Assembly: GCA_016290215.1 (NCBI GenBank)
Contig: JAEETH010000011.1
Coordinates: forward strand, 23,918-87,917
Length of the DNA: 64,000 bases
Direction of reading: 5' to 3'
DNA from: Bacteroidales bacterium
GTDB taxonomy: Bacteria; Bacteroidota; Bacteroidia; Bacteroidales; F082
The position numbers were made by a program, and so were the translations under genes. The notes beneath the pieces are model-generated. The model was not told where the DNA came from. It worked only from the letters and a program-made list of their open reading frames with translations, and did not search any database. Every line of letters starts with the position of its first letter. Positions within the stretch are counted from its first letter, which is position 1. Positions 27,574 to 37,795 of this stretch are shown one piece after another.

Positions 27574-27607
27574 GTAGAGACGCGATTTATCGCGTCTCTA
27601 CTGTTTT
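27574..27607 (+). terminator. Terminator after infB made of a dispersed palindrome
   Basis: GTAGAGACGCGAT (27574-27586) pairs perfectly with ATCGCGTCTCTAC (27589-27601), followed by TGTTTTT. The arms are the same GTAGAGACG word found at 55836-55863, so a repeat element appears to serve as the terminator. Confidence 0.8.
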
Positions 27608-28170
27608 TATTGCAAGGTCAATTCGCAAAGCCCGTCCTTGTTGCCCACCACAAATGCCACGGGCGGATTGTCGCCCTGCACAAGGTCGTTCAGGTAGAGC
27701 GGCTCGCCGAGGATGAAGAGTGCGCAGCGGAAAGTGTTACCCACCTTCAGCTTGGAGTTTTCGGCTTGCTCCACAACGAAACGGTAGTCGCCAAGATAGC
27801 GGAACGTGCATCGGCGGTTGGGTTTCCATGAAACCGAGACAAGGTCGCCGACCTTCAGGTCATCCGTCTTGATGTGTTGTTTGGTCACACGGTCGGAGCC
27901 GTTGTCTTGGCCGATATACTCCAAAAAACCGTCCCAATCCTTGAAACCCAAGAATTTCGACAAGATTTCAAGCGTGCTGTTGCGTGTGGTGTCGGGACCG
28001 TCGACATAGCCCCAAAGCCGTTTCAGCGTGGAAGTGCTGATGTTCTCGTGGGTGCGCTCCCAGATGGCGCCACTGAGGAAGGTGAAGTCGTTGGACGTCT
28101 TCATCTTGCGCCCGACGCTTTCCTCGATTTGCTGCTTGAGTTCGGAGATTTCTGGACTGGTTTTCTGCAT
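27607..28170 (-). CDS. Hypothetical protein
   Basis: 187 residues if started at the ATG at 28170 (MQKTSPEISELKQQ). The open frame reaches 28209, but the extra residues come from a GACGCGAGAC-type repeat, so they are not counted. The N-terminal half has Thr/Leu-rich helices (TLEILSKFLGFKDWDGFLEY); the C-terminal half is beta-rich (GDLVSVSWKPNRRCTFRYLG). Proteins of this pattern are common in Bacteroidales, but I know no function. It is convergent with infB and divergent from the kinase. Confidence 0.55.
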   Translation of the reverse strand: MQKTSPEISELKQQIEESVGRKMKTSNDFTFLSGAIWERTHENISTSTLKRLWGYVDGPDTTRNSTLEILSKFLGFKDWDGFLEYIGQDNGSDRVTKQHIKTDDLKVGDLVSVSWKPNRRCTFRYLGDYRFVVEQAENSKLKVGNTFRCALFILGEPLYLNDLVQGDNPPVAFVVGNKDGLCELTLQ

Positions 28171-28182
28171 GGTGTCTTTTTT

Positions 28183-28225
28183 GACGCGAGACTTTTTGAC
28201 GCGGGACACGAGACTGTCTCGCGAC
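28183..28225. repeat. GACGCGAGAC-type repeat
   Basis: GACGCGAGAC (28183-28192) and a second GACGCGGGAC (28198-28207) are followed by a GAGACTGTCTCGCGAC hairpin ending at 28225. The word family recurs at 59255-59328. Confidence 0.5.
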
Positions 28226-28296
28226 TTTTCAACGGCAAAGTAACAAACTTTTTTCGTATTGCGTGCGTTTCTTTTTGGTTCATTTTGTAAAATGTG

Positions 28297-28424
28297 AGAT
28301 TCCCCAGGGGAATGGAGTGGGCATTTGAGTATAATGCGGCGACAAGTAGTTCATTTGCTATGTAAACTCCACCTGTCGCCGCAGTTCTAATTAGTACCAG
28401 ATATCTCCATTCCCTTGGGAATCT
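28297..28424. repeat. 128-bp inverted repeat upstream of the kinase gene
   Basis: The left end AGATTCCCCAGGGGAATGGA (28297-28316) is matched on the right by CTCCATTCCCTTGGGAATCT (28405-28424). Inside, TGCGGCGACA (28335-28344) and TGTCGCCGCA (28374-28383) are perfect complements. It lies between two divergent genes and may be a REP-type element or a structured leader. Confidence 0.6.
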
Positions 28425-28484
28425 ATAACTTTAATGAGCCCATGAAGTTTATAGAAAAGCCCAAACGGTTTATAATAGTTTTCG

Positions 28485-28492
28485 TACTTTTG
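28485..28492 (+). promoter_or_regulatory. -7 element of the kinase gene
   Basis: TACTTTTG matches TAnnTTTG and lies 16 bp before the ATG at 28509, giving a very short leader. Confidence 0.5.
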
Positions 28493-28508
28493 CCGAAAAA
28501 TATAGGCC

Positions 28509-29675
28509 ATGGACGACAATAGCACTTCGGGAATCATCAATGGCAGTTTCATCACCGAGACGGATGCTATGACGGTGTACGAGTCCTCATCGTCACGTGG
28601 TTTCAACCAGGTGGTGAAGGTGCAGAGACAAGGCAAATGGTTCATCCTGAAAGGCTTGAAACCCGAATATCGCGACCAACAGGCCTATATCGAGTTGCTG
28701 AAGAAGGAGTTTGACTTGGGCACCCAACTCGACCATCCCAACATCGTGAAGATACTCGCCAAGGAGATGAACCCCGAGGTGGGGCCATGCATCGTGATGG
28801 AGTATGTGGATGGCGTGCCTCTGGATGCGTTTCTCGCTTCAAAGCCCTCGGCGAATGTTCGTAAAAAAGTGGTGGAGCAGCTGGTGGACGCCCTCGTTTA
28901 CATCCACGGCAAGCAAATCATCCACCGCGACTTGAAGCCGAGCAACATTTTGGTGACCAGAAACAGCAATAACGTGAAAATCATCGACTTCGGCCTTTCC
29001 GATGCCGATGACTACGCCGTGTTGAAGCAGCCTGCCGGCACCTTGAAATACATGGCGCCCGAGCAAAAGGAACCTGCTGTGAAGATTGACGGTCGAGCTG
29101 ACCTCTATGCCTTCGGTTTGCTGTTGAAGGAGATTTTCCCGCACCGCTACAGGCACATTGCAGCCAAGTGCTCGCGTGTCGACCGCGAGTGCCGCTATGC
29201 CAACGCCGAAGCCTTGAAGAAAGCCTTTGAGCGGCATACGCGTTGGCTTTGGATGCTTCCGATTTTGATAGGGGTGGTGTTGGCGATTATCCCGTTGTTG
29301 TTGCGGCCCAAAGAAATCGTTAGGACCGAGGTACAGCATGTGATTGACACCATCATCGTGGAGCGTAATCCCAACGGTTATTCCGACGAGTTCATGGCGC
29401 TGCTCGACAGGGCTGAGTTTATCATTGACAGTATGTATCAGCCTGTCATCGACGACATAAACAATGGAAAATATGAGGCTGATGTTGTCGGTGTCTATGA
29501 TGATTTCACTAACAGGTTGAAGGTTTGTCGTTCGTTGTTGCAAAACATCCAATCGCCGTTGCTTGACGACCGCAAGACCAGCGACGAGTTCAGAAGCGCT
29601 TGGGAGAAGATGCACAACGACAAGTATAACGAGATTGCCTTTATGATGTTCGATCGAGTGAACCAAACAGAATAG
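28509..29675 (+). CDS. Transmembrane Ser/Thr protein kinase
   Basis: 388 residues. Residues 20-240 form a Hanks-type kinase domain: the Lys of WFILKGLKPE (VAIK equivalent), a C-helix Glu, IIHRDLKPSNILV with the catalytic Asp, KIIDFGLSD (DFG), and GTLKYMAPEQ. A membrane helix at about 256-275 (LPILIGVVLAIIPLLL) separates it from a C-terminal part of about 110 residues outside the membrane. The C-lobe is short but the core residues are all present. Likely role is a signal receptor; the target is unknown. Confidence 0.85.
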   Translation: MDDNSTSGIINGSFITETDAMTVYESSSSRGFNQVVKVQRQGKWFILKGLKPEYRDQQAYIELLKKEFDLGTQLDHPNIVKILAKEMNPEVGPCIVMEYVDGVPLDAFLASKPSANVRKKVVEQLVDALVYIHGKQIIHRDLKPSNILVTRNSNNVKIIDFGLSDADDYAVLKQPAGTLKYMAPEQKEPAVKIDGRADLYAFGLLLKEIFPHRYRHIAAKCSRVDRECRYANAEALKKAFERHTRWLWMLPILIGVVLAIIPLLLRPKEIVRTEVQHVIDTIIVERNPNGYSDEFMALLDRAEFIIDSMYQPVIDDINNGKYEADVVGVYDDFTNRLKVCRSLLQNIQSPLLDDRKTSDEFRSAWEKMHNDKYNEIAFMMFDRVNQTE

Positions 29676-29710
29676 ACTTGAGGAATAAACACAAATGGAG
29701 TCAACTAAGC

Positions 29711-29871
29711 CTATAATAAAGGTGTCATGTAGATAGGCATGTAGGTGATGTTGCCTTCGATTTTTAGGTCTGAGGTGTGGATGACGGTAGGAGTGGTTAA
29801 ATGCTCGCCACTTCTCCTTGTTGTTGTTCTTTCCATTCAATAAGTTGTTGATATATCTTGCGTTTCATCAT
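29711..29871 (-). pseudogene. Remnant of an AAA/DUF4143 ATPase gene
   Basis: The ATG at 29871 opens a frame of MMKRKIYQQLIEWKEQQQ followed by a few residues and a stop at 29797. That N-terminus matches the start of the ATPase at 39545 (KRKIYDRLLKW). A second frame, ending at 29711, encodes HTSDLKIEGNITYMPIYM and TPLL, which looks like the normal C-terminus of the same family. Everything between, including the P-loop, has been deleted. Confidence 0.65.
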
Positions 29872-29878
29872 TATAAAA

Positions 29879-29938
29879 CACCTTTTTGAGATTTTTGATG
29901 CTGCAAATATACACTTTTTTGAGATTTTTTATCCTGCA
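29879..29938. repeat. 33-bp-spaced direct repeats at the ATPase remnant promoter
   Basis: Two 27-bp repeats, at 29879-29905 and 29912-29938, match at 24 positions; both contain TTTTTGAGATTTTT and end CTGCA. Their starts are exactly 33 bp apart. On the minus strand a TATATTTG -7 element lies between or beside them (29904-29911). Confidence 0.65.
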
Positions 29939-30025
29939 TCACCATCTTTAGAAAGTAGAAACGGAAAACATGAACCAACATGAACCAAAAGGATTCCGCT
30001 TTTGCCGCAAAATCCTCGTTTTTAT

Positions 30026-30056
30026 TTTGTATTTCTCCAAAAATTCCCTAATTTTG
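30026..30056 (+). promoter_or_regulatory. Promoter of a candidate non-coding RNA
   Basis: TTTG (30026-30029), a spacer of 19 bases and TAATTTTG (30049-30056) match the -33/-7 consensus of Bacteroidota very well. The predicted start is about 30062. Confidence 0.7.
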
Positions 30057-30061
30057 GGGCG

Positions 30062-30296
30062 TAAAATAAAAGAAAAGCCTATGGAATAACCCGCCGTAAG
30101 GCGCAATTAGAAGCAATATAGTTCATATAATCAGACGATTAGCAATATTCTGTCTTATCGAAAGTTTGGCGATTTGAGATAAAGAAACCAGAATGATGCT
30201 GAAAGTTGCACGCGTAGCGTGTGCTTTTCAACATTCGGTTTCTTTAGGTATGCCAAACACCTCGATAAGCGGATGCAAAAGTATCACGCTTTTTTT
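30062..30296 (+). ncRNA. Candidate structured non-coding RNA
   Basis: The RNA would start after the promoter at 30026-30056 and end in the terminator AGCGGAT/ATCACGCT plus seven T (30268-30296). It has a small hairpin CGCC-GTAA-GGCG (30092-30103). A long rod follows at 30154-30269, where CTTATCGA pairs with TCGATAAG, TTTGGC with GCCAAA, TAAAGAAACC with GGTTTCTTTA, GAATG with CATTC, and the tip is GCACGC-gta-GCGTGTGC. No open frame is convincing inside. A rod with a central internal loop recalls 6S RNA, but I cannot assign it. Confidence 0.55.
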
Positions 30297-30408
30297 GTGC
30301 TGGCAAGAAACGACCTAAAATGAACCAAAATGAACCTGAAAAGTTTCTGAGGAAGTGCGTTTCTTTGCAGGTGGGAAAAGAAAGAAGAACAACTAAAACT
30401 ATACGAAT

Positions 30409-30669
30409 ATGAGTGTCGAATACTACAAAAAGAAATTGGTGGATTTGAGAGCCGACGTGGTCAAAGAGAAAGAAGCCAAGAAAAGAGACAACGAGAGGTA
30501 TGCTGGATTAATCAAAAGTGCCTCGTCACCTTCGAGCAAGGCTTCTTACAGAAAGAGCAAAATAGACCATGCCGCTGCTCATGACCGCAAGATTGAAAGT
30601 CTGAAACGGGAGATAGAGCGTTGCAAAGATACTTTGGCTCGCGAAAGGGAACGGGCGAAAAGGAAGTAA
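30409..30669 (+). CDS. Small charged coiled-coil protein
   Basis: 86 residues, almost entirely Lys/Glu/Arg-rich with heptad-like spacing (KKLVDLRADVVKEKEAKKRD, then IESLKREIERCKDTLARERE). No signal peptide or domain. It is the first gene of the island (30.4-35.0 kb) and starts about 110 bp after the RNA terminator. A DNA- or RNA-associated coiled-coil is possible, but no function is proposed. Confidence 0.6.
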   Translation: MSVEYYKKKLVDLRADVVKEKEAKKRDNERYAGLIKSASSPSSKASYRKSKIDHAAAHDRKIESLKREIERCKDTLARERERAKRK

Positions 30670-30699
30670 AATAATTGTATCACTTAAATACTTAATATT

Positions 30700-31068
30700 A
30701 TGGGACTGATTAACAATCTGAAAGACAAATTCAACAAGGCGGAATTCACCGTGGCTCCGCAGAAGAAACTTAAGACTCTCTCCAAGGAGTTTTTGGATGC
30801 GTTTGACCTGCAATTGGTGTTCTACAAAGGCAACATCATTGCCGAAGGTGACTTGACCTTGGCTGCCTTGAACAAGAAAACCACCAAAGATGTCAACGCT
30901 AAAGCAGACGGCATCAAAATCAAAGGTAGCACAAAAGTTGGCGATGCCGAGAAGATGTTCGACACTAACTTTGGTGTAAAGGTGCAAATCAAGGACAAGG
31001 CAGGAAAGATATGCGTTCCGAATGAGATAACCATTGGACAAGCCGCAAGAGGAGAGTATGAACGGTAA
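30700..31068 (+). CDS. Island protein with divergent duplicated module
   Basis: 122 residues. It shares the pattern of the island proteins: KKLKTLSKEFLDAFDLQLVF followed by a YKG and ATLA-like segment (EGDLTLAALN), then a second half with STKVGDAEKMFDTNFGVKVQ. The first half corresponds to MKVKTLK..F..FG..LRVY and the second to MKVGNFEDKI..FGIKVQVA of the 100-residue proteins at 33993 and 34671. It is the most divergent member and starts 30 bp after the coiled-coil gene. Confidence 0.65.
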   Translation: MGLINNLKDKFNKAEFTVAPQKKLKTLSKEFLDAFDLQLVFYKGNIIAEGDLTLAALNKKTTKDVNAKADGIKIKGSTKVGDAEKMFDTNFGVKVQIKDKAGKICVPNEITIGQAARGEYER

Positions 31069-31084
31069 TTTAAACAATAAAGTT

Positions 31085-31651
31085 ATGGCAACAACAACCA
31101 AAAAGACAACAACGGCAAAACCAGCTGCTAAAAAGACCACGACGACAAAAACCGCTGCTAAAAAGACCGCAACAGCAAAACCTGTTGTAAAAAAGACGGC
31201 AACAACAAAGACCTCTACAAAGAAGACTACAACAGCAAAGGCAACGACTACAACCAAAAGCAACGAAATTTCAGTGACCGGAAACAAGAAGATAAGCACG
31301 CTTATGAAAGAATTCAACAAACAGTTTCCATATCTTAATCTCTGTATTTTTTATAGTTATGCTCGCCAACAAGTGGCAAAAGGTGAAAACATTACTCCTA
31401 TTGAATACAACAAAACCCTTGCGTCTGTGCGTCGTGCTGATTCAGGAGGGGATATTTCGATTTCTGGGAACAAGAAGATTAAAACATTGGAGAAGGAGTT
31501 TGATACTGTCTTTGGCCTCTACACTCAAGTATGCTTCGCTGTCAAAGAAGGGCAACGCCACTATACTAGTGGAACACAAGATGAGATGACTCTTGCTGCT
31601 TTTAATAAACTATGTGAAGATTCAGGTTTCAAGAAAGGTGCTTGGGTTTAA
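31085..31651 (+). CDS. Lys/Thr/Ala-rich tail plus duplicated island module
   Basis: 188 residues from the ATG at 31085. Residues 1-55 are a low-complexity tail of Lys, Thr and Ala repeats (AKPAAKKTTTTKTAAKK type), resembling the basic tails of histone-like or nucleoid proteins. Residues about 60-185 contain two copies of the island unit: GNKKISTLMKEFNKQFPYLN and GNKKIKTLEKEFDTVFGLYT, each followed by a T-L-A segment. The basic tail suggests nucleic-acid binding, which is inference. The frame from 31034 starts inside the previous gene and is not used. Confidence 0.6.
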   Translation: MATTTKKTTTAKPAAKKTTTTKTAAKKTATAKPVVKKTATTKTSTKKTTTAKATTTTKSNEISVTGNKKISTLMKEFNKQFPYLNLCIFYSYARQQVAKGENITPIEYNKTLASVRRADSGGDISISGNKKIKTLEKEFDTVFGLYTQVCFAVKEGQRHYTSGTQDEMTLAAFNKLCEDSGFKKGAWV

Positions 31652-31692
31652 TCGAAATAGGGCAAAGCAACATTCGCTGATGTAGAATAGAA

Positions 31693-32598
31693 ATGGGAAA
31701 CACGACATCTCTGCGAGAACTCTTAAACAGCAAAGAACCTCGCTTTGACCAGTCCTTGTCCGCTGGCAAGGTGCAACTGATGCGTCTGAAAAACATAGCT
31801 ATCACCATTGATGGTCAGACGCACAAGGACAAGAATCTCTTTGACCTTTTCCTTGACCATCAGAACGACGGACTGTTTGAGGATTATGTGCGTGAGCATA
31901 CCCCTGTCAATGCTAACTTGCTTATGCAGGCGGATTATGTCATTGTCTTTGTGGCCGATGGCAAGTTTTCCCGTTTTGCGGGTGTGTATCAGGTTTTTGG
32001 AGAAGACAAGTCTGCCAAAGTGCAATCGGATGGCAAAAAAGGCGATACGGTTTTTGTTAAAGTGGAGCGCCTGAAAGCTTTTGAACCCTTGGGTGGCCGT
32101 GTCCTCGTCGATTGGGGAGGACTGGCCGCTCAGCGGTGGTTGCAATGGTTCAGGAGCGACAAGAAAGTGCTTCGCATTGACGAAGGCATCATTCGCATGA
32201 TGATTCCTTTCACCTCCTATAATGACGTGCTGCTTTCTTTCAAGGAGTTGAAGAACCTCATCGAGACCGACAATGTGGAATGGCGCGACAAACTGAAGGC
32301 GGTGAATGGTATTTATGGCATTGCCGACCAAAGCAACGGCAAACTTTATGTCGGATCGGCCTACGGCGACGAAGGCATCTGGGGCCGCTGGAAAGTGTAT
32401 GTCGAAACCAACGGCCATGGCAACAACGATATGCTGGTTGAGTTGCTAAGCAAGAATAAAGACTATGCTTGGGACCATTTCCAATGGTTCATCCTCGAAA
32501 CCTTCCCATTGGACGTGACTGATGATTACGCCATCCATAGGGAGAATCTTTATAAGTTGAAACTTTGTACAAGGGCGTTTGGGTACAATAAAAATTAG
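31693..32598 (+). CDS. GIY-YIG nuclease-domain protein
   Basis: 301 residues. The N-terminal part (about 1-200) is unknown to me; it contains FDLFLDHQNDGLFEDYV and FAGVYQVFGE. The C-terminal part from about residue 215 is a GIY-YIG-type module: GIYGIADQSNGKLYVGSAYG, then GIWGRWKVYVETNGHGNNDM, an Arg-containing helix and a late catalytic-type Glu in IHRENLYKLKL. GIY-YIG nucleases cut DNA in repair, homing or restriction. Target unknown. It sits in the middle of the island, 41 bp after the previous gene. Confidence 0.75.
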   Translation: MGNTTSLRELLNSKEPRFDQSLSAGKVQLMRLKNIAITIDGQTHKDKNLFDLFLDHQNDGLFEDYVREHTPVNANLLMQADYVIVFVADGKFSRFAGVYQVFGEDKSAKVQSDGKKGDTVFVKVERLKAFEPLGGRVLVDWGGLAAQRWLQWFRSDKKVLRIDEGIIRMMIPFTSYNDVLLSFKELKNLIETDNVEWRDKLKAVNGIYGIADQSNGKLYVGSAYGDEGIWGRWKVYVETNGHGNNDMLVELLSKNKDYAWDHFQWFILETFPLDVTDDYAIHRENLYKLKLCTRAFGYNKN

Positions 32599-32612
32599 AA
32601 AACAAAGAATCA

Positions 32613-33197
32613 ATGAAAATAAAAGAAAAAATATTCCATAAGGATTCTAGTACTTTGTCACCTGATGTTTTTGTTGACTGTGAGACATTTGACAAAATAT
32701 TGAAGGAAGGCAGATACGATAAAGATGACTCCTTGGATATTTTGTTCGAGAAGTATGAAACACTTTGCGATTTGTCGGTGATGAAACTTGATAAACGCCA
32801 AAAGGAAAAGGTTCATAATGCCAAAATGACTTTTGTGGCTGAAATAACAACTCCGCAGGATGTTGAGCAATCATTGACATTTGTAATACGAGCTATGCCG
32901 TATGCAAAAAAAACTATCGGTTCAGAGGTGACTCAGGCATTGACAAGTATTGGATTTGGAACAATAAAAACCGTGTCAGCAGTTGGTAAAATAGCGACTT
33001 TAGGAGCTTTGAGTAAATCTATGAATCAAGTTGAGAGTATTACTAAAAAGGCAATTACATCTGACGATTACGAATTGGCTTGCGCTTGGGAAACCAAACT
33101 TCAACATATTATCGCTGATGTGAAAAGGAAATTGAAAATGTTTGGAGATAAAGAGTTGAAATCAAAGATTTCTGAATTGGAAAAGCAATTAAAATAG
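32613..33197 (+). CDS. Hypothetical island protein
   Basis: 194 residues, Lys/Glu-rich at both ends. The centre (IGSEVTQALTSIGFGTIKTV, then SAVGKIATLGALSKSMNQVE) is a hydrophobic helical hairpin rich in Gly/Ala/Ser, followed by a Lys-rich C-terminal helix (LKSKISELEKQLK). Not recognised. Its last bases (GCAATTAAAATAGAAATAGG) reappear, nearly unchanged, before the gene at 34671, so a piece of its 3' end was duplicated with the leader. Confidence 0.5.
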   Translation: MKIKEKIFHKDSSTLSPDVFVDCETFDKILKEGRYDKDDSLDILFEKYETLCDLSVMKLDKRQKEKVHNAKMTFVAEITTPQDVEQSLTFVIRAMPYAKKTIGSEVTQALTSIGFGTIKTVSAVGKIATLGALSKSMNQVESITKKAITSDDYELACAWETKLQHIIADVKRKLKMFGDKELKSKISELEKQLK

Positions 33198-33198
33198 A

Positions 33199-33238
33199 AA
33201 TAGGAGTAATGCCGAAAATCCTGTAAAGAGTAGGCAAC
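33199..33238 (+). promoter_or_regulatory. Conserved island leader, copy 1
   Basis: AATAGGAG, a short spacer, GCCGAAAATCCTGTAAAGAG and TAGGCAA precede the gene at 33255. The segments AGGA/TCCT and GCC/GGC are complementary and interleave, so a small pseudoknot is possible. Copies 2 and 3 lie at 33933 and 34606. Confidence 0.5.
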
Positions 33239-33254
33239 TAAAAAAGAAATAATT

Positions 33255-33932
33255 ATGGCATCATTTAAGATTACAGGCCAAATGAAGATCAAAACGCTGA
33301 AGGAACAGTTTATGAACAACTTCGGTTCAGTGCTTAGGGTGTATTATCACCACCATTTTGCAGACGACAATGCCACGTTGGCTGCTATCCGTGGCGGGGG
33401 CGCCATAGGCGGCGAACTGGACTGTGGCGACAACGACATTGTTGGCGATTTCGAAGAGTTCATGATGGCCTTGTATGGCATCGAGGTTCAAGTGGCTTCG
33501 CCCGACAATAGTTTCCTTGTCGATAATGATTTGAAACTCTGTGAGGTGAGAAATGCATCGCCTAATCCCAATACCGAGAAGAAAGTAAAGAAGGCATTTG
33601 TCTTCAACGGACAAACTTACAAAACAAAAGGCCGTTTGTGCCATGCAATAGTGAAATACTATGCAGAGCAAAACCCCAACGCTGCCTTGGTAACTCTGCA
33701 AAGAGCATTCAATACAGCCACAAATATGATTGTGGCCACTCCTGAAATGGCAAAGACTATCGTCAATAGTGACAAAATCCCAGGAGGCGACTTCTACATG
33801 AAAGAAGAGGATGTGATTTGCTTGAAAAATTGTAAGGTGGTGGTCTGGAAATACTGGCCAGAGCAATACTTCAAACCCTTTATGGAGCAAGTGAAAGCCT
33901 TGGGATATACCGTTGAAGAAATAGAACAATAA
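33255..33932 (+). CDS. Island protein: duplicated module plus C-terminal domain
   Basis: 225 residues. Residues 1-95 are the island module: GQMKIKTLKEQFMNNFGSVL, RVYYHHHFADDNATLAAIRG, then GDFEEFMMALYGIEVQVASP. Residues about 105-225 are a separate domain (GQTYKTKGRLCHAIVKYYAE, and a late KNCKVVVWKYWPEQYF) that I cannot place. The module is closer to the 100-residue proteins than to the one at 30700. The gene has the conserved leader in front. Confidence 0.65.
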   Translation: MASFKITGQMKIKTLKEQFMNNFGSVLRVYYHHHFADDNATLAAIRGGGAIGGELDCGDNDIVGDFEEFMMALYGIEVQVASPDNSFLVDNDLKLCEVRNASPNPNTEKKVKKAFVFNGQTYKTKGRLCHAIVKYYAEQNPNAALVTLQRAFNTATNMIVATPEMAKTIVNSDKIPGGDFYMKEEDVICLKNCKVVVWKYWPEQYFKPFMEQVKALGYTVEEIEQ

Positions 33933-33971
33933 AATAGGAGCATCGCCGAAAATCCTGTAAAGAGTAGGCAA
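33933..33971 (+). promoter_or_regulatory. Conserved island leader, copy 2
   Basis: AATAGGAGCATCGCCGAAAA, then TCCTGTAAAGAGTAGGCAA, directly after the stop at 33932 and before the 33993 gene. The AGGA/TCCT and GCC/GGC words are unchanged from copy 1. Confidence 0.5.
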
Positions 33972-33992
33972 ACATTAAACAACTTATTTATT

Positions 33993-34295
33993 ATGGCAGA
34001 TTTCAATATTGATGGCCGCATGAAGGTCAAGACGTTGAAAGCCCAGTTCAAGGAGGCTTTCGGTGCAACGTTGAGAGTTTACAAAGGTCCCGGCTTCGCT
34101 GACGACAACGCCACTTTGGCATCCATCCGTGCCGAAGGCGCCAAAGGCGGCGAGGTGAAAGTGGTCGGCAACATGAAGGTCGGCAACTTCGAGGACAAGA
34201 TCAAGGAGGTGTTTGGCATTAAGGTGCAGGTTGCCACTAAGGACGACTCAGCCCTGGCCGACAATAGCATTACCTTGAGCGCTGCGGGAAAATAA
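33993..34295 (+). CDS. 100-residue island protein, copy 1
   Basis: 100 residues: a first unit DGRMKVKTLKAQFKEAFGAT, LRVYKGPGFADDNATLASIR and a second unit VVGNMKVGNFEDKIKEVFGI, KVQVATKDDSALADNSITLS. The two halves align with each other (M-K-V-x-T/N-L/F..., F-G, V, AD-(D)N), so the protein is an internal duplication. The protein is identical to that of the gene at 34671; the DNA differs only at silent positions. Function unknown. Confidence 0.75.
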   Translation: MADFNIDGRMKVKTLKAQFKEAFGATLRVYKGPGFADDNATLASIRAEGAKGGEVKVVGNMKVGNFEDKIKEVFGIKVQVATKDDSALADNSITLSAAGK

Positions 34296-34345
34296 CCCAT
34301 TTCGAATAAACTAACTTTGTTATTAACTTTTTAAAAATTAAAAAT

Positions 34346-34546
34346 ATGGCTTACAAAAAATCAGCAATTAGCGGAGAATACATGTTGGGTGTTCTTGAAA
34401 GCGGTTCAATCGAAGTTTACCGTGTTTATGACAATGTAAAAGGCGCATTACGCGAAATAGCGGAGAAAGAAGGTTTTGAATACGATCCTAATTGGAATAC
34501 CCGTCAATTCGGAGCGAAACTTATCGACTTTCTTAACGAAAAGTAA
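34346..34546 (+). CDS. Small hypothetical island protein
   Basis: 66 residues (MAYKKSAISGEYMLGVLESG start, NTRQFGAKLIDFLNEK end). A plausible short alpha/beta domain with no motif that I recognise. Located between the two 100-residue copies; it lacks the conserved leader and has an AT-rich upstream stretch. Confidence 0.55.
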   Translation: MAYKKSAISGEYMLGVLESGSIEVYRVYDNVKGALREIAEKEGFEYDPNWNTRQFGAKLIDFLNEK

Positions 34547-34605
34547 CAATAGACGGAAAATTAACATAACTCCAGTCTATGTTGAGCCAGAAAAGTAATT
34601 AAAAT

Positions 34606-34646
34606 AGAAATAGGAGCATCGCCGAAAATCCTATAAAGAGTAGGCA
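34606..34646 (+). promoter_or_regulatory. Conserved island leader, copy 3
   Basis: AATAGGAGCATCGCCGAAAA, then TCCTATAAAGAGTAGGCAAA, before the gene at 34671. It differs from copy 2 by one substitution in the central part. Upstream bases also match the 3' end of the gene at 32613. Confidence 0.5.
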
Positions 34647-34670
34647 AACATTAAACAACTTATTTTTATT

Positions 34671-34973
34671 ATGGCAGATTTCAATATTGATGGCCGCATG
34701 AAGGTCAAGACGTTGAAAGCCCAGTTCAAGGAGGCTTTCGGTGCAACATTGAGAGTTTACAAAGGTCCAGGCTTTGCTGACGACAACGCTACTTTGGCAT
34801 CCATCCGTGCCGAAGGCGCCAAAGGCGGCGAGGTGAAAGTGGTCGGCAACATGAAGGTCGGCAACTTCGAGGACAAAATCAAGGAAGTGTTCGGCATTAA
34901 GGTGCAGGTCGCCACGAAGGACGACTCAGCCCTGGCCGACAATAGCATTACCTTGAGCGCTGCGGGAAAATAA
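34671..34973 (+). CDS. 100-residue island protein, copy 2
   Basis: Encodes the same 100 residues as the gene at 33993. Only synonymous changes are seen (for example GCAACG to GCAACA and CCCGGCTTC to CCAGGCTTT). The pair is either recently duplicated or kept similar by recombination. Last gene before the terminator at 34992. Confidence 0.75.
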   Translation: MADFNIDGRMKVKTLKAQFKEAFGATLRVYKGPGFADDNATLASIRAEGAKGGEVKVVGNMKVGNFEDKIKEVFGIKVQVATKDDSALADNSITLSAAGK

Positions 34974-34991
34974 CCCATTTTTTTCTGTGAG

Positions 34992-35020
34992 GAGGGTGGG
35001 CGTAACGCCTGCCCTCTTTT
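34992..35020 (+). terminator. Terminator closing the island
   Basis: GAGGGTGGGCG (34992-35002) pairs with CGCCTGCCCTC (35006-35016) across TAA, with two wobble pairs, followed by TTTT. It marks the right end of the 30.4-35.0 kb transcription unit. Confidence 0.8.
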
Positions 35021-35085
35021 GTAAACAAGCTGTTTATACACAACAAACATGTCGGAATTCTTGCAAGTAAGAATACAAAAAAGTG

Positions 35086-35706
35086 ATGATGAAAGTATTA
35101 CTTACCGGTTTTGAGCCTTTTGGTCAAGAAAAAGTGAATCCTTCATGGGAAACAGTGAAAGCGTTTCCTGAACTCAGGGAAGATGTTGAGGTCTTGAAAA
35201 TATGTCTGCCTGTCTCGTTTCAAAAAGCAGTGACGATGCTGGAGCAGGCCGTTGACGATTATCGTCCCGATGTGCTGCTGAGCATCGGGCAAGCTGGAGG
35301 ACGCTGTGCAATCGAAGTGGAGCGTGTTGCCATCAACATGGTTGACAGTAAAAAGCCCGATAATGATGGCTATCAGCCTCAGGAGTGTCAATTGCGAGCA
35401 GATGCCCCGAATGCTTACTTCAGCAACTTGCCGCTGAAACGGCTGGTGGAAGCTATTCAAGATGAAGGTATCCTTGCGGCCATCTCCAATAGTGCTGGAC
35501 TTTACGTGTGCAATAGCGTTTTTTATACTGCCATGCATTTGGTATATAGCAAATATCCAAACATGCAAGCAGGATTCATCCATGTCCCTTATCTGCCTTG
35601 CCAGGTCGTGGGCAAAAACAAGCAGCCATCTATGTCTACCGAAACAACAGTACTGGCTTTAATAGCTGTAATACAAGCGTTGATGGCTTGTAATCAAATG
35701 GTTTAA
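35086..35706 (+). CDS. pcp: Pyroglutamyl-peptidase I (C15)
   Basis: 206 residues from the ATG at 35086 (or the next ATG at 35089). The start VLLTGFEPFGQEKVNPSWET is the family signature. The segment SIGQAGGRCAIEVERVAIN includes the catalytic Glu. The catalytic Cys is in ISNSAGLYVCNSVFYTAMH and the His in GFIHVPYLP. It removes N-terminal pyroglutamate from peptides in the cytoplasm. It follows the island terminator, so it probably has its own promoter. Confidence 0.92.
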   Translation: MMKVLLTGFEPFGQEKVNPSWETVKAFPELREDVEVLKICLPVSFQKAVTMLEQAVDDYRPDVLLSIGQAGGRCAIEVERVAINMVDSKKPDNDGYQPQECQLRADAPNAYFSNLPLKRLVEAIQDEGILAAISNSAGLYVCNSVFYTAMHLVYSKYPNMQAGFIHVPYLPCQVVGKNKQPSMSTETTVLALIAVIQALMACNQMV

Positions 35707-35768
35707 TCCTTGTCATCAAGAATAATCCTTATAACAGAGGCTAAAAAATAAGTAATCAATTTTTCGCT

Positions 35769-37469
35769 ATGGGTTTTCAGCGTATAAAAAAAGAACTCGC
35801 ACGGGTGTTTGACGACAATCTCCGCACCAGGCAGTGGCAAAACGTGGTTGATTATATAATCATTGGGTTGATTGTTATCAGCACCATAGAGGTGTTTCTG
35901 TCTACCTATGAAAATATCGTTGAGAAATATGGACATATCTTGAAATTTATCGATTGGTTTACCACCATTTTCTTTACCATAGAAGTCACTTTAAGAATCT
36001 GGACTGCCGACCTTCAAGATGCAAGATTCAAAGGATTTAAAGGGAGGTTGCGTTATTGCTTCACGTTTTACGGGTTAATAGATATACTATCAACATATTC
36101 TTTTTATTTACACTTCTTCATGCCAATGCCGTATGCCGCGCTGAAGATCTTGAGGGTTTTCCGCTTATTGCGCATTTTTCGCTATATGAAGTCGTTCCGC
36201 ATTTTGGGCGATGCGATTTCGTCAAAAAAGCAGGAACTAACGGTTAGCTTGGCTTTCTTGTCTATCTTGACGGTTATCTTGTCATTCTTGTTGTATTTTG
36301 CCGAACATGCTGCACAACCGGAATTGTGCGAAAATGGTTGGAAAACCATGGTCTGGGCATTCGCCAAATACCTCGGCGACCCGGGAAAGATTGCAGATTT
36401 CCCGATGGTCACATTTTGGGGAAACTTAATCGCAATAATCGTGGGAGTGCTTGGCATTGCCATATTCGCTGTACCTGCTGGTTTGATCAGTTCTGGTTTC
36501 ATCGAAGTGATGGATGAAAGAAGAAAAACAGAGGAAACCAAAAAGAATGTGGAAAAAATGCATTTGGCATTTGAGCGTAAGCTTGACAGACCTACTGGAT
36601 TTCAAATCGTGCCAGCGTTTGTTTCTATTGCCGATGTGCAGTCTCGATTGAAAATGAGTGAAAATGACATATTCGATGCATTGGCCAATGCGGAAGATTT
36701 CCGGCTTGTGAATTTGGCTACCACACAACCGGTCAACCAGCATCCAGAAGACAGACTCGTAATCGAACACTATCAGCTCAACCGCCCCTATGGTGTTTGC
36801 ATTGACAGAGGTTCAGCGGTCACTATAGTCTCTCCTTCTTCTCTGGTGGATCCCATTATGGGATATTTTTCTTATTATCTCGCTAAGATTGGAGGCTTTA
36901 ACTATGTCAGCAGGGAGATAGGTGAAACAAGACCGTATAAATCATTTTATTTAATAGATAAGGCAAACGAACCTCCGTTTTTAAAGGAATATATGGAAGA
37001 TTTGAATCGCTTTGCAGCTGTTGACGGCAGTTGGATTATCACCTTGTTGGCAGCAAGTGGTGCAAATGAGCCAGAGTATCCGACGCAATTCCATTTTACC
37101 TATGGAGGGAAAAAAGGAGATGAAACTTATAATGGCGAAAACCTGACCATTCATGATTTTAATACCTTTGATTCCTTATATAAGGATTTGTCAAATCGGT
37201 TAGAGAGAGAATTTGAATATGTTTCTGATTGCCAGCGATATCACGACACTTCAAATCTCAAATTGTTTGTCCGTCATCTTGAGCATACCGAAAAGATAAA
37301 CGCATTGATGTTGCGCATAGCATGGAAAGCAACTTGTTGGGATATGCGAAGAATACAAATAGCAAAAATCCTTTCCGATACCTTTGCAACATATCTGTTA
37401 GGTGGGATCAATCCATACTCAGATGAGTTGAAAAAGAAAGGAATGGGGTATTCTGATTATTGTGAATAA
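35769..37469 (+). CDS. Six-helix ion channel with unusual pore and long cytoplasmic domain
   Basis: 566 residues. Residues about 25-240 form an S1-S6 voltage-sensor-type unit; S4 is LKILRVFRLLRIFRYMKSFR, with Arg/Lys every third position. The pore loop between S5 and S6 reads WAFAKYLGDPGKIADFPMVT and lacks the TVGYG filter of K+ channels, though S6 (GVLGIAIFAVPAGLISSGF) is normal. About 320 residues of soluble C-terminal domain follow. It belongs to the ion_trans superfamily, but ion specificity is unclear. Confidence 0.75.
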   Translation: MGFQRIKKELARVFDDNLRTRQWQNVVDYIIIGLIVISTIEVFLSTYENIVEKYGHILKFIDWFTTIFFTIEVTLRIWTADLQDARFKGFKGRLRYCFTFYGLIDILSTYSFYLHFFMPMPYAALKILRVFRLLRIFRYMKSFRILGDAISSKKQELTVSLAFLSILTVILSFLLYFAEHAAQPELCENGWKTMVWAFAKYLGDPGKIADFPMVTFWGNLIAIIVGVLGIAIFAVPAGLISSGFIEVMDERRKTEETKKNVEKMHLAFERKLDRPTGFQIVPAFVSIADVQSRLKMSENDIFDALANAEDFRLVNLATTQPVNQHPEDRLVIEHYQLNRPYGVCIDRGSAVTIVSPSSLVDPIMGYFSYYLAKIGGFNYVSREIGETRPYKSFYLIDKANEPPFLKEYMEDLNRFAAVDGSWIITLLAASGANEPEYPTQFHFTYGGKKGDETYNGENLTIHDFNTFDSLYKDLSNRLEREFEYVSDCQRYHDTSNLKLFVRHLEHTEKINALMLRIAWKATCWDMRRIQIAKILSDTFATYLLGGINPYSDELKKKGMGYSDYCE

Positions 37470-37486
37470 TAAAAAACGAGAGATAA

Positions 37487-37795
37487 ATGTTAGTAACCGC
37501 CTTATTATGGCTTTTTCAAAAGATTTCGCCAATACTCACCATCCTTGGAGCATTGGTGCTTTTCGGCGATGGCTTTGAAGGATATGAATTTATTGTCGGA
37601 GCGATTTTGGCGGTGATTGGCTTCATTGTCGGCTGGTCAGCATGGGGTCAGGAAGTGCCGCCGCGCTGGTTTTGGGTGAAGTCGAAACTCGAATTGTTTG
37701 ACAATCGGGCCTGGAATGCGTTCAGTTACGCTCTCCAGTTTTTCTTGATACCTTTTGGCGTCACTGGAATCATTACGATTGTTGATATGTTGTGA
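37487..37795 (+). CDS. Small membrane protein
   Basis: 102 residues with three predicted membrane helices (LLWLFQKISPILTILGALVL, then FIVGAILAVIGFIVGW, then a C-terminal helix near FFLIPFGVTGIITIV). It starts 17 bp after the channel gene and may be its partner. No family recognised. Confidence 0.55.
   Translation: MLVTALLWLFQKISPILTILGALVLFGDGFEGYEFIVGAILAVIGFIVGWSAWGQEVPPRWFWVKSKLELFDNRAWNAFSYALQFFLIPFGVTGIITIVDML

Follow-up and report, generated by a model that had tools for sequence, protein, structure and literature searches.

The cluster of small, partly duplicated proteins around a GIY-YIG nuclease described here raises the question of whether its members form one functional system and, if so, what that system does. 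The cluster (hereafter the island) had been placed by a first-pass annotation at positions 30409-35020 of a 64,000-nucleotide stretch of Bacteroidales DNA (the window), which belongs to contig C116 of a genome assembly of 3.8 Mb in 153 contigs that is 85% complete. The annotation had listed eight codirectional genes with short gaps, closed by a strong terminator. Codirectionality and short gaps hold (14-60 nucleotides (nt) between genes, and 124 nt ahead of the last one), while the genes on the plus strand between 30409 and 34973 number nine (30409, 30700, 31085, 31693, 32613, 33255, 33993, 34346, 34671; named by their start positions). The terminator is borne out by a 14-pair hairpin after the last gene (-23.1 kcal/mol and z -5.1 for 34975-35025, equalled by 0 of 200 shuffles). 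Five of the nine proteins share a common unit and are referred to as types a to d (Table 1).

That the genes work together, as had been proposed, is well supported in the sense that they belong together: the same families recur codirectionally, in shuffled order, in 80 related loci. On balance we favour the reading that a modular conflict block, most likely anti-phage, has the island as its variable core; the block would be kinase-controlled and would combine a swappable nuclease with small adaptors. The support for the defence role is indirect; we infer it because the nuclease matches UzuA, the kind of nuclease varies by locus, the block is present sporadically, and its chromosomal site differs.

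Recurrence of the gene families in related loci

The genome_contigs collection was scanned with the type a unit protein, and the best 80 of 208 relatives were kept (the 80 loci). The titles of 79 of them name Bacteroidales or other Bacteroidota, many from ruminant or other animal gut sources. The set overlaps that of the genus described below and contains near-identical pairs, e.g., L125 and L126. Clustering covered 1605 open reading frames (ORFs), taken from the 80 loci and from part of the window. Family labels were assigned among the 45 largest clusters, and five clusters resembling antisense or chance ORFs do not appear on the maps. The picking of the longest ORF loses genes that lie under long antisense ORFs (30409, 30700 and 31085 in the window), and the following counts are therefore lower bounds: cc80 is found in 48 loci, the kinase in 43, the OmpA-tailed/33255-type proteins in 43, the putative regulator in 39, the channel in 35, the peptidase in 22, the KAP NTPase in 22, the small membrane protein tm101 in 20, and TerB in 15. 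Every member of the OmpA-tailed, channel, peptidase, KAP, TerB, cc80 and nuclease families is encoded on the same strand as the unit genes, as are 38 of the 43 kinase genes. Sorted by their best match to the window proteins, unit proteins of type a, the type used as the search query, are present in 79 loci, those of type b in 67, and those of type c in 25.

A locus with unit proteins and a KAP gene (L190) is titled Helicobacter cetorum; it may be a contaminating Bacteroidales contig.

An exchangeable nuclease

The original assignment of the 31693 protein as a GIY-YIG nuclease is correct, though the protein falls below the cut-offs of Pfam (GIY-YIG, E = 0.011) and NCBIfam (group I intron endonuclease, 4.4e-8, 33.4 bits against 56.05). 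The PADLOC model PDLC03973 (UzuA) matches it over its full length (residues 7-301 against positions 5-278 of 278; 8.4e-66), and a second UzuA model does so at 8.1e-44. Residues Y208, Y219, G221, R232 and E284 are conserved in the UzuA-like cluster (eight sequences, several of one genus) and would fit the catalytic tyrosines, arginine and glutamate. Uzume (UzuA) is reportedly a single-gene anti-phage system, from Millman et al. 2022. The likeness of the 31693 gene to this system lies in the two model matches; it differs in being one of nine genes in an operon within a kinase-led block, sister loci of which carry other nucleases.

These other nucleases comprise GIY_YIG_2 proteins (9 loci), LEM-3-like GIY-YIG proteins (5), PvuRts1I-like proteins with an SRA domain (9), PDDEXK_4 proteins (9), and a family of 224 amino acids (23); UzuA-like enzymes are found in seven loci. 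The 224-residue family enters this list as a nuclease on account of E27, D71, E84 and K86, each retained by at least 90% of 23 sequences in a pattern like that of PD-(D/E)XK enzymes; its Pfam match lies below the cut-off (0.042). With six kinds distinguished, exactly one is present in 48 of the 80 loci, two in seven, and none is detected in 25. A mean of 32.3 loci with exactly one kind was obtained on permutation, and 48 was reached in 1 of 10,000 permutations.

An association of the unit proteins with a GIY-YIG gene at every locus, which had been put forward as a check, was not found: the three GIY-YIG kinds occur in 20 of the 80 loci (7 + 9 + 5 less one overlap). A GIY-YIG gene was thus rejected as the constant partner, the remaining 60 loci showing another nuclease or none detected.

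The larger block: kinase, putative regulator and membrane module

The limits given for the island at first (30409-35020) were too tight. A kinase and a putative regulator lie upstream, and a peptidase, a channel-like protein and tm101 lie downstream, so that the true unit spans about 27607-37795, or about 10 kb. Its layout places the kinase and the divergent putative regulator at one end, followed by the array of two-unit proteins, helper genes, and usually one nuclease; a membrane module (an ion channel, often with the peptidase, or a KAP NTPase) tends to end the block. A minimal form in the same genus (genome G201, locus L076) consists of regulator, kinase, cc80, type b, GIY-YIG, a DUF805b RNA element, type a, channel and tm101.

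The Ser/Thr protein kinase has a transmembrane segment after the kinase domain, read by eye, and at least 92% of 44 sequences keep its catalytic positions K, HxD, N and DFG. In PADLOC it comes closest to two defence kinases, mad6 (4.7e-39) and PD-T4-6 (2.7e-38), though this may be generic kinase similarity and nothing more. The product of o27607 presumably acts as a regulator; its homologues lie on the minus strand in 25 cases and on the plus strand in 14, and the one homologue scanned has no Pfam family above the cut-off. At the other end of the block, channel and KAP NTPase are anti-associated (both in 6 loci, channel only in 36, KAP only in 16, neither in 22; p = 0.0065); the KAP NTPase of related loci resembles PifA (6.5e-31, PADLOC).

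The recurrence of an Ion_trans channel, a membrane kinase and OmpA-tailed proteins, and the retention of the channel in the relative with the smallest island (L076), would also agree with an envelope or ionic stress-response operon in which membrane regulation falls to kinase, channel, peptidase and small proteins, with the nuclease as a passenger. We consider this explanation unlikely, since channel and KAP NTPase tend to replace one another, 55 of the 80 loci carry at least one of the six kinds of nuclease, and the block has a sporadic distribution and a changing site.

Distribution and chromosomal site

The block is sporadic in gut Bacteroidales: unit proteins are found in 23 of 99 genomes of the genus and, with a single-protein query, in 13 of 295 genomes of the order. 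In the window the block has infB on one side and an AAA gene on the other, and the loci L115, L206 and L207 have other flanks again. pyrD and/or murB stand at the block edges in 6 of the 23 maps of the genus (the window and 22 loci), both of them in four. In the host genome of the window these two genes are 372 nt apart, measured by match ends, with an ORF of 85 codons between them; they are 82 nt apart in genome G101, and one other gene lies between them in G327 and G319. murB was not found at E 1e-60 in 3 of the 10 genomes queried. The pyrD-murB site of G369 (L215) holds the regulator, the kinase, proteins of 111 and 555 amino acids, a LEM-3-like GIY-YIG protein and an AAA protein; the 555-residue protein matches one long member of the type a list (9e-36, 34% identity), and the genome has no unit-protein match at E 1e-5. 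The cargo of the pyrD-murB interval thus varies from nothing or an 85-residue ORF through one gene or a kinase with a GIY-YIG protein to a full block (L215-L219, L076, L117, L202, L205).

From the differing sites and the content of the G369 interval, the block seems to relocate as one piece whose contents can be swapped. A mobile-element origin of the block, phage- or plasmid-borne, found no support: the 33993 protein as a single query had no match in viral, plasmid and phage collections.

The presence in G369 of kinase and regulator with other cargo, the strong variation in gene order and composition, and the full-length UzuA match invite the explanation that unrelated defence or selfish genes have loosely accumulated behind a common kinase and regulator, each acting alone as single-gene UzuA would. 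Type b accompanies type a, the query, in 67 of the 80 loci, and loci titled with several Bacteroidales groups share codirectional families; such a loose island is in our view improbable.

Proposed mode of action

If the favoured reading of a kinase-controlled conflict block is correct, the membrane-anchored kinase would sense infection or envelope stress, and its phosphorylation activity would release the regulator and/or activate a complex. The divergent regulator would control transcription, and DUF805b RNA leaders would set the expression of single unit genes within the operon. The small two-unit proteins may serve as adaptors that link kinase, nuclease and membrane protein; the nuclease, UzuA-like in the window, would then cleave nucleic acid of the invader or of the host, and the role of effector at the membrane might fall to the channel or KAP protein.

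Several observations weigh against this reading. Neither the kinase nor the channel is constant (43 and 35 of the 80 loci), and an ion channel with a peptidase would fit a stress response too. No nuclease is detected in 25 of the 80 loci, in some because of short contigs, and among the 42 loci longer than 18 kb it is missing in 10; when the weakly assigned 224-residue family is dropped, one kind of nuclease is found in 29 loci, two in 5, and none in 46. No PADLOC model is matched by seven of the nine window proteins scanned and by four of ten proteins of relatives. The 33993 protein is without relatives in the plasmids, phages and viral_contigs collections (the last covered in one scan of eight; no integrase search was made). 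Furthermore, the loci are related and partly redundant, so that the permutation and Fisher values given above (1 in 10,000; p = 0.0065) are not strict probabilities.

The unit proteins and their predicted fold

The claim that five proteins share a common unit was confirmed: a search of the host genome with the 33993 protein at E up to 10 yielded five matches, beyond chance and all in the island, namely 33993 and the identical 34671, 33255 (1.2e-25), 30700 (7.3e-11) and 31085 (2.3e-4). Most of them were said to contain the unit twice. By direct comparison of the two halves this applies to 33993 and its copy 34671 (score 50; shuffles 21.2, standard deviation 4.3) and to 31085 (77; shuffles 20.7, standard deviation 3.7), whereas no internal duplication is detected by this comparison in 33255 (19 vs 18.0 for shuffles) and 30700 (19 vs 20.5); the latter two count as two-unit proteins solely through end-to-end alignment over both units of 33993. 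The genes 33993 and 34671 differ by nine synonymous and no non-synonymous substitutions, and the copies hence look as if they were under selection or gene conversion. A shortened type a gene stands behind a DUF805b element, near another type a copy, in genome G318 (L114:7550-7774).

No family above the cut-off was obtained for 30700, 31085, 33255 and 33993 in Pfam, NCBIfam or PADLOC. The Lys/Thr/Ala-rich stretch, previously taken for a tail, sits at the N-terminus of 31085; a histone-like HC2 identity of this protein was rejected, as this stretch accounts for the match (2.6e-8; 34.7 bits, below the cut-off of 40). The C-terminal domain of 33255 resembles the N-terminal part of OmpA-tailed proteins from other loci; direct matches between them are weak (about 6e-4), and the two groups were joined by clustering.

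A sequence-profile search of Protein Data Bank (PDB) sequences with a unit protein gave nothing useful (best E 0.34). The structural model of 33993 consists of two beta-alpha-beta units (predicted local distance difference test score, pLDDT, 88), and its Foldseek ranks 1-32 against the PDB are all ubiquitin or ubiquitin-like entries, mostly two-domain forms such as linear di-ubiquitin and ISG15, the matched chain being taken as the ubiquitin-like one by title or length. None of these matches reaches E 0.001 (best 7.1e-3; template modelling (TM) scores 0.31-0.37). The root-mean-square deviation from the two-domain forms is 13-17 A over both domains; in some lower rows, single ubiquitins align over 41-47 columns at 2.0-2.8 A. 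The model of the 31085 units (pLDDT 91) also shows beta-alpha-beta twice and gave no fold consensus against the PDB, with ISG15 at rank 4 (E 0.41) and a two-domain OAS-like entry at rank 5 (0.44). A beta-alpha-beta core is thus common to the predicted units of 33993 and 31085. A ubiquitin-like fold is suggested by the one model of 33993 and is kept tentative because the second model gave no consistent fold.

Against viral structures, the 33993 model has weak matches over most of its length (E 0.014-0.13, TM 0.47-0.56) to small proteins, including Erwinia and Serratia phage proteins, one of which is named a putative toxin.

The ubiquitin-like rankings, and a C-terminal AAGK in 61 of 118 type a proteins, might point to ubiquitin-like conjugation akin to Bil or Bub, with the 100-residue protein as a tandem modifier with a conserved C-terminus; this we regard as very improbable, because the sole ThiF (E1-like) match of the 85%-complete genome lies on another contig (C131; E2 and deubiquitinase were not searched for), and also in view of the tail, GK rather than GG, and of a second model without ubiquitin consensus.

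Returning to the conflict block, a more specific proposal, which we put forward as a possibility to which we would give less than even credence, is a class of immune operons in which a transmembrane kinase controls tandem ubiquitin-fold-like adaptors; these would function without conjugation enzymes as docking sites for a membrane effector and an exchangeable nuclease, and the adaptor genes would have structured RNA leaders of their own.

DUF805b RNA elements within the island

Three regulatory RNA elements inside the island had been missed by the earlier annotation. They belong to the Rfam family DUF805b (RF02914), and each directly precedes a unit gene (33255, 33993 and 34671). The likeness to the family lies in their scores above the gathering score; the difference is that the downstream genes encode unit proteins, while the family is linked, as we presume from its name, with DUF805 genes. 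Four matches of the host genome exceed the cut-off, and three of these lie in the island; three further matches score 28.8-34.4 bits. DUF805b is present in 184 of 295 genomes of the order at E up to 1e-4 (133 over the cut-off) and in 0 of 14 control genomes. DUF805b as a marker of island-type loci alone was ruled out by these 184 genomes and by the diversity of the downstream genes examined. In L092, L093 and L094, for instance, the element stands before rows of three or four small genes whose products start with MRKLKL or MRRLKL and carry a GG motif; these peptides look like precursors of secreted or modified peptides.

In the fetched loci the element was located by a custom pattern (tail motif, loop and a four-pair stem) and not by Rfam. 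The pattern matched 30 times in the 80 loci, and four matches lacking the loop motif were removed; the next gene downstream of the remaining 26 is of type a in 18 cases, of type c in one, SGEY in one, BspA-like in one, another ORF in three, and none in two. An ATG is within reach of 115 element instances, overlapping loci being counted more than once, and in 108 of these the start codon lies 20-27 nt beyond the end of GTAGG.

In 77 of 82 distinct elements from the window and the fetched loci, the base that precedes the loop CC can pair in standard fashion with the one that follows the tail GG (G-C 55, G-U 8, U-A 6, A-U 6, C-G 2). In shuffles the mean was 56.6 and the maximum 66, and 77 was reached in 0 of 10,000, although many elements were recruited by a consensus-favouring model and related sequences are not independent. 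This covariation supports a loop-tail pseudoknot in DUF805b. The printed consensus line of the family shows no such pairing; a line of this kind cannot hold pseudoknots. No paper on DUF805b, nor on DUF805 together with an RNA motif, was found in the literature search.

Comparison with known systems

Searched by title and mostly without subscription papers, the literature yielded no description of such a locus. Its parts are of known kinds, and their combination would be a variant of the modular conflict operon. In PMC13373217, CapK-CapS is described as a kinase and a repressor upstream of diverse immune operons; CapK resembles anti-sigma factor (GHKL) kinases, and CapS is a protein with STAS and winged helix-turn-helix (wHTH) domains. 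The likeness to the present block lies in a kinase and a putative DNA-binding protein that head variable operons (PMC13373217). The kinase of the present block differs in belonging to the Pkinase family, and the o27607 homologue scanned has no STAS or wHTH domain by Pfam. CapK-CapS would be the nearest working analogy, not a homologue.

Bil is a ubiquitin-like defence system. Operons named Bub appear in PMC13373217. With both, the block would share small proteins with a possible, model-predicted ubiquitin-like fold in a defence-like operon; it differs in that no ThiF gene lies on the contig of the window, E2 and deubiquitinase genes not having been searched for. NTP-dependent conflict systems (NTP, nucleoside triphosphate) combine small adaptor domains with variable effectors, and links to prokaryotic ubiquitin-like systems are mentioned (PMC7159879). 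The combination of small adaptor-type domains with variable effectors is the likeness to the present block; a term search of that text (PMC7159879) gave neither GIY-YIG nor an ion channel, and its matches to KAP are author names. No Zorya model (ZorA/ZorB) was matched among the nine window proteins scanned with PADLOC; the OmpA-tailed protein of a relative has a weak ZorB match (2.6e-8).

The present analysis brings together, as one system open to test, a large number of small gut Bacteroidales proteins that lack annotation; the type a and type b unit proteins provide families by which such loci can be located. It reveals a natural series of differing nucleases within one kind of kinase-linked operon. 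An orphan regulatory RNA, DUF805b, is likewise assigned to a defined operon, where its spacing to the start codon is almost constant, and a loop-tail pseudoknot is supported for it, so that the function of this RNA becomes testable.

Further features of the region

The coordinates of all features of the block are compiled in Table 1.

Table 1. Genes, RNA elements and predicted hairpins of the block, in window coordinates
Feature	Position	Strand	Evidence
o27607, divergent putative regulator, 200 aa (amino acids)	27607..28209	-	homologues in 39/80 loci
KIN, Ser/Thr protein kinase	28509..29675	+	Pfam Pkinase 1.1e-32; cluster in 43/80 loci
Inverted repeat in the 733-nt gap 5' of the island	30185..30250	+	folding
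cc80, small charged protein, 86 aa, coiled coil by eye	30409..30669	+	homologues in 48/80 loci
Unit protein type b, 122 aa	30700..31068	+	E = 7.3e-11 to 33993; type in 67/80 loci
Unit protein type c, 188 aa, Lys/Thr/Ala-rich N-terminus	31085..31651	+	internal duplication; type in 25/80 loci; model pLDDT 91
UzuA-like GIY-YIG nuclease, 301 aa	31693..32598	+	PADLOC UzuA 8.4e-66
p32613, 194-aa protein of no assigned family	32613..33197	+	homologue in L077, 2e-35, 37% identity
DUF805b RNA	33201..33236	+	RF02914, 41.0 bits (gathering score 35.6)
Unit protein type d, unit region and C-terminal domain	33255..33932	+	E = 1.2e-25 to 33993
DUF805b RNA	33935..33970	+	RF02914, 37.6 bits (35.6)
Unit protein type a, copy 1, 100 aa	33993..34295	+	own-genome search, alignment; model pLDDT 88
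SGEY66, 66-aa protein of no assigned family	34346..34546	+	own cluster, 8/80 loci
DUF805b RNA	34611..34646	+	RF02914, 38.5 bits (35.6)
Unit protein type a, copy 2, identical protein	34671..34973	+	gene comparison with copy 1
Intrinsic terminator hairpin	34989..35019	+	folding of 34975-35025
PCP, pyroglutamyl-peptidase I	35083..35706	+	TIGR00504 4.9e-68; in 22/80 loci
KCH, Ion_trans channel-like	35769..37469	+	L164 homologue, Pfam Ion_trans 2.4e-18; cluster in 35/80 loci
tm101, small membrane protein by eye	37487..37795	+	cluster in 20/80 loci

Stretches resembling SGEY66 are found within larger proteins of L078 and L082. A simple terminator scan of the region detected seven candidates against 6.4 expected, i.e., the background level. 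On the minus strand, an antisense ORF of 264 codons (30526-31320) overlies the genes 30700-31085 and is probably no gene.

The inverted repeat in the gap 5' of the island folds at -20.4 kcal/mol (z -2.55), and 2 of 200 shuffles fold equally well. Between it and the first island gene, the window carries at 30270-30300 a sequence with CGCTTTTTTTG at its end and a short inverted repeat before it; a sequence ending in the same way, together with a short inverted repeat, likewise lies upstream of three other DUF805b genes of the genome (L002, L005, L006).

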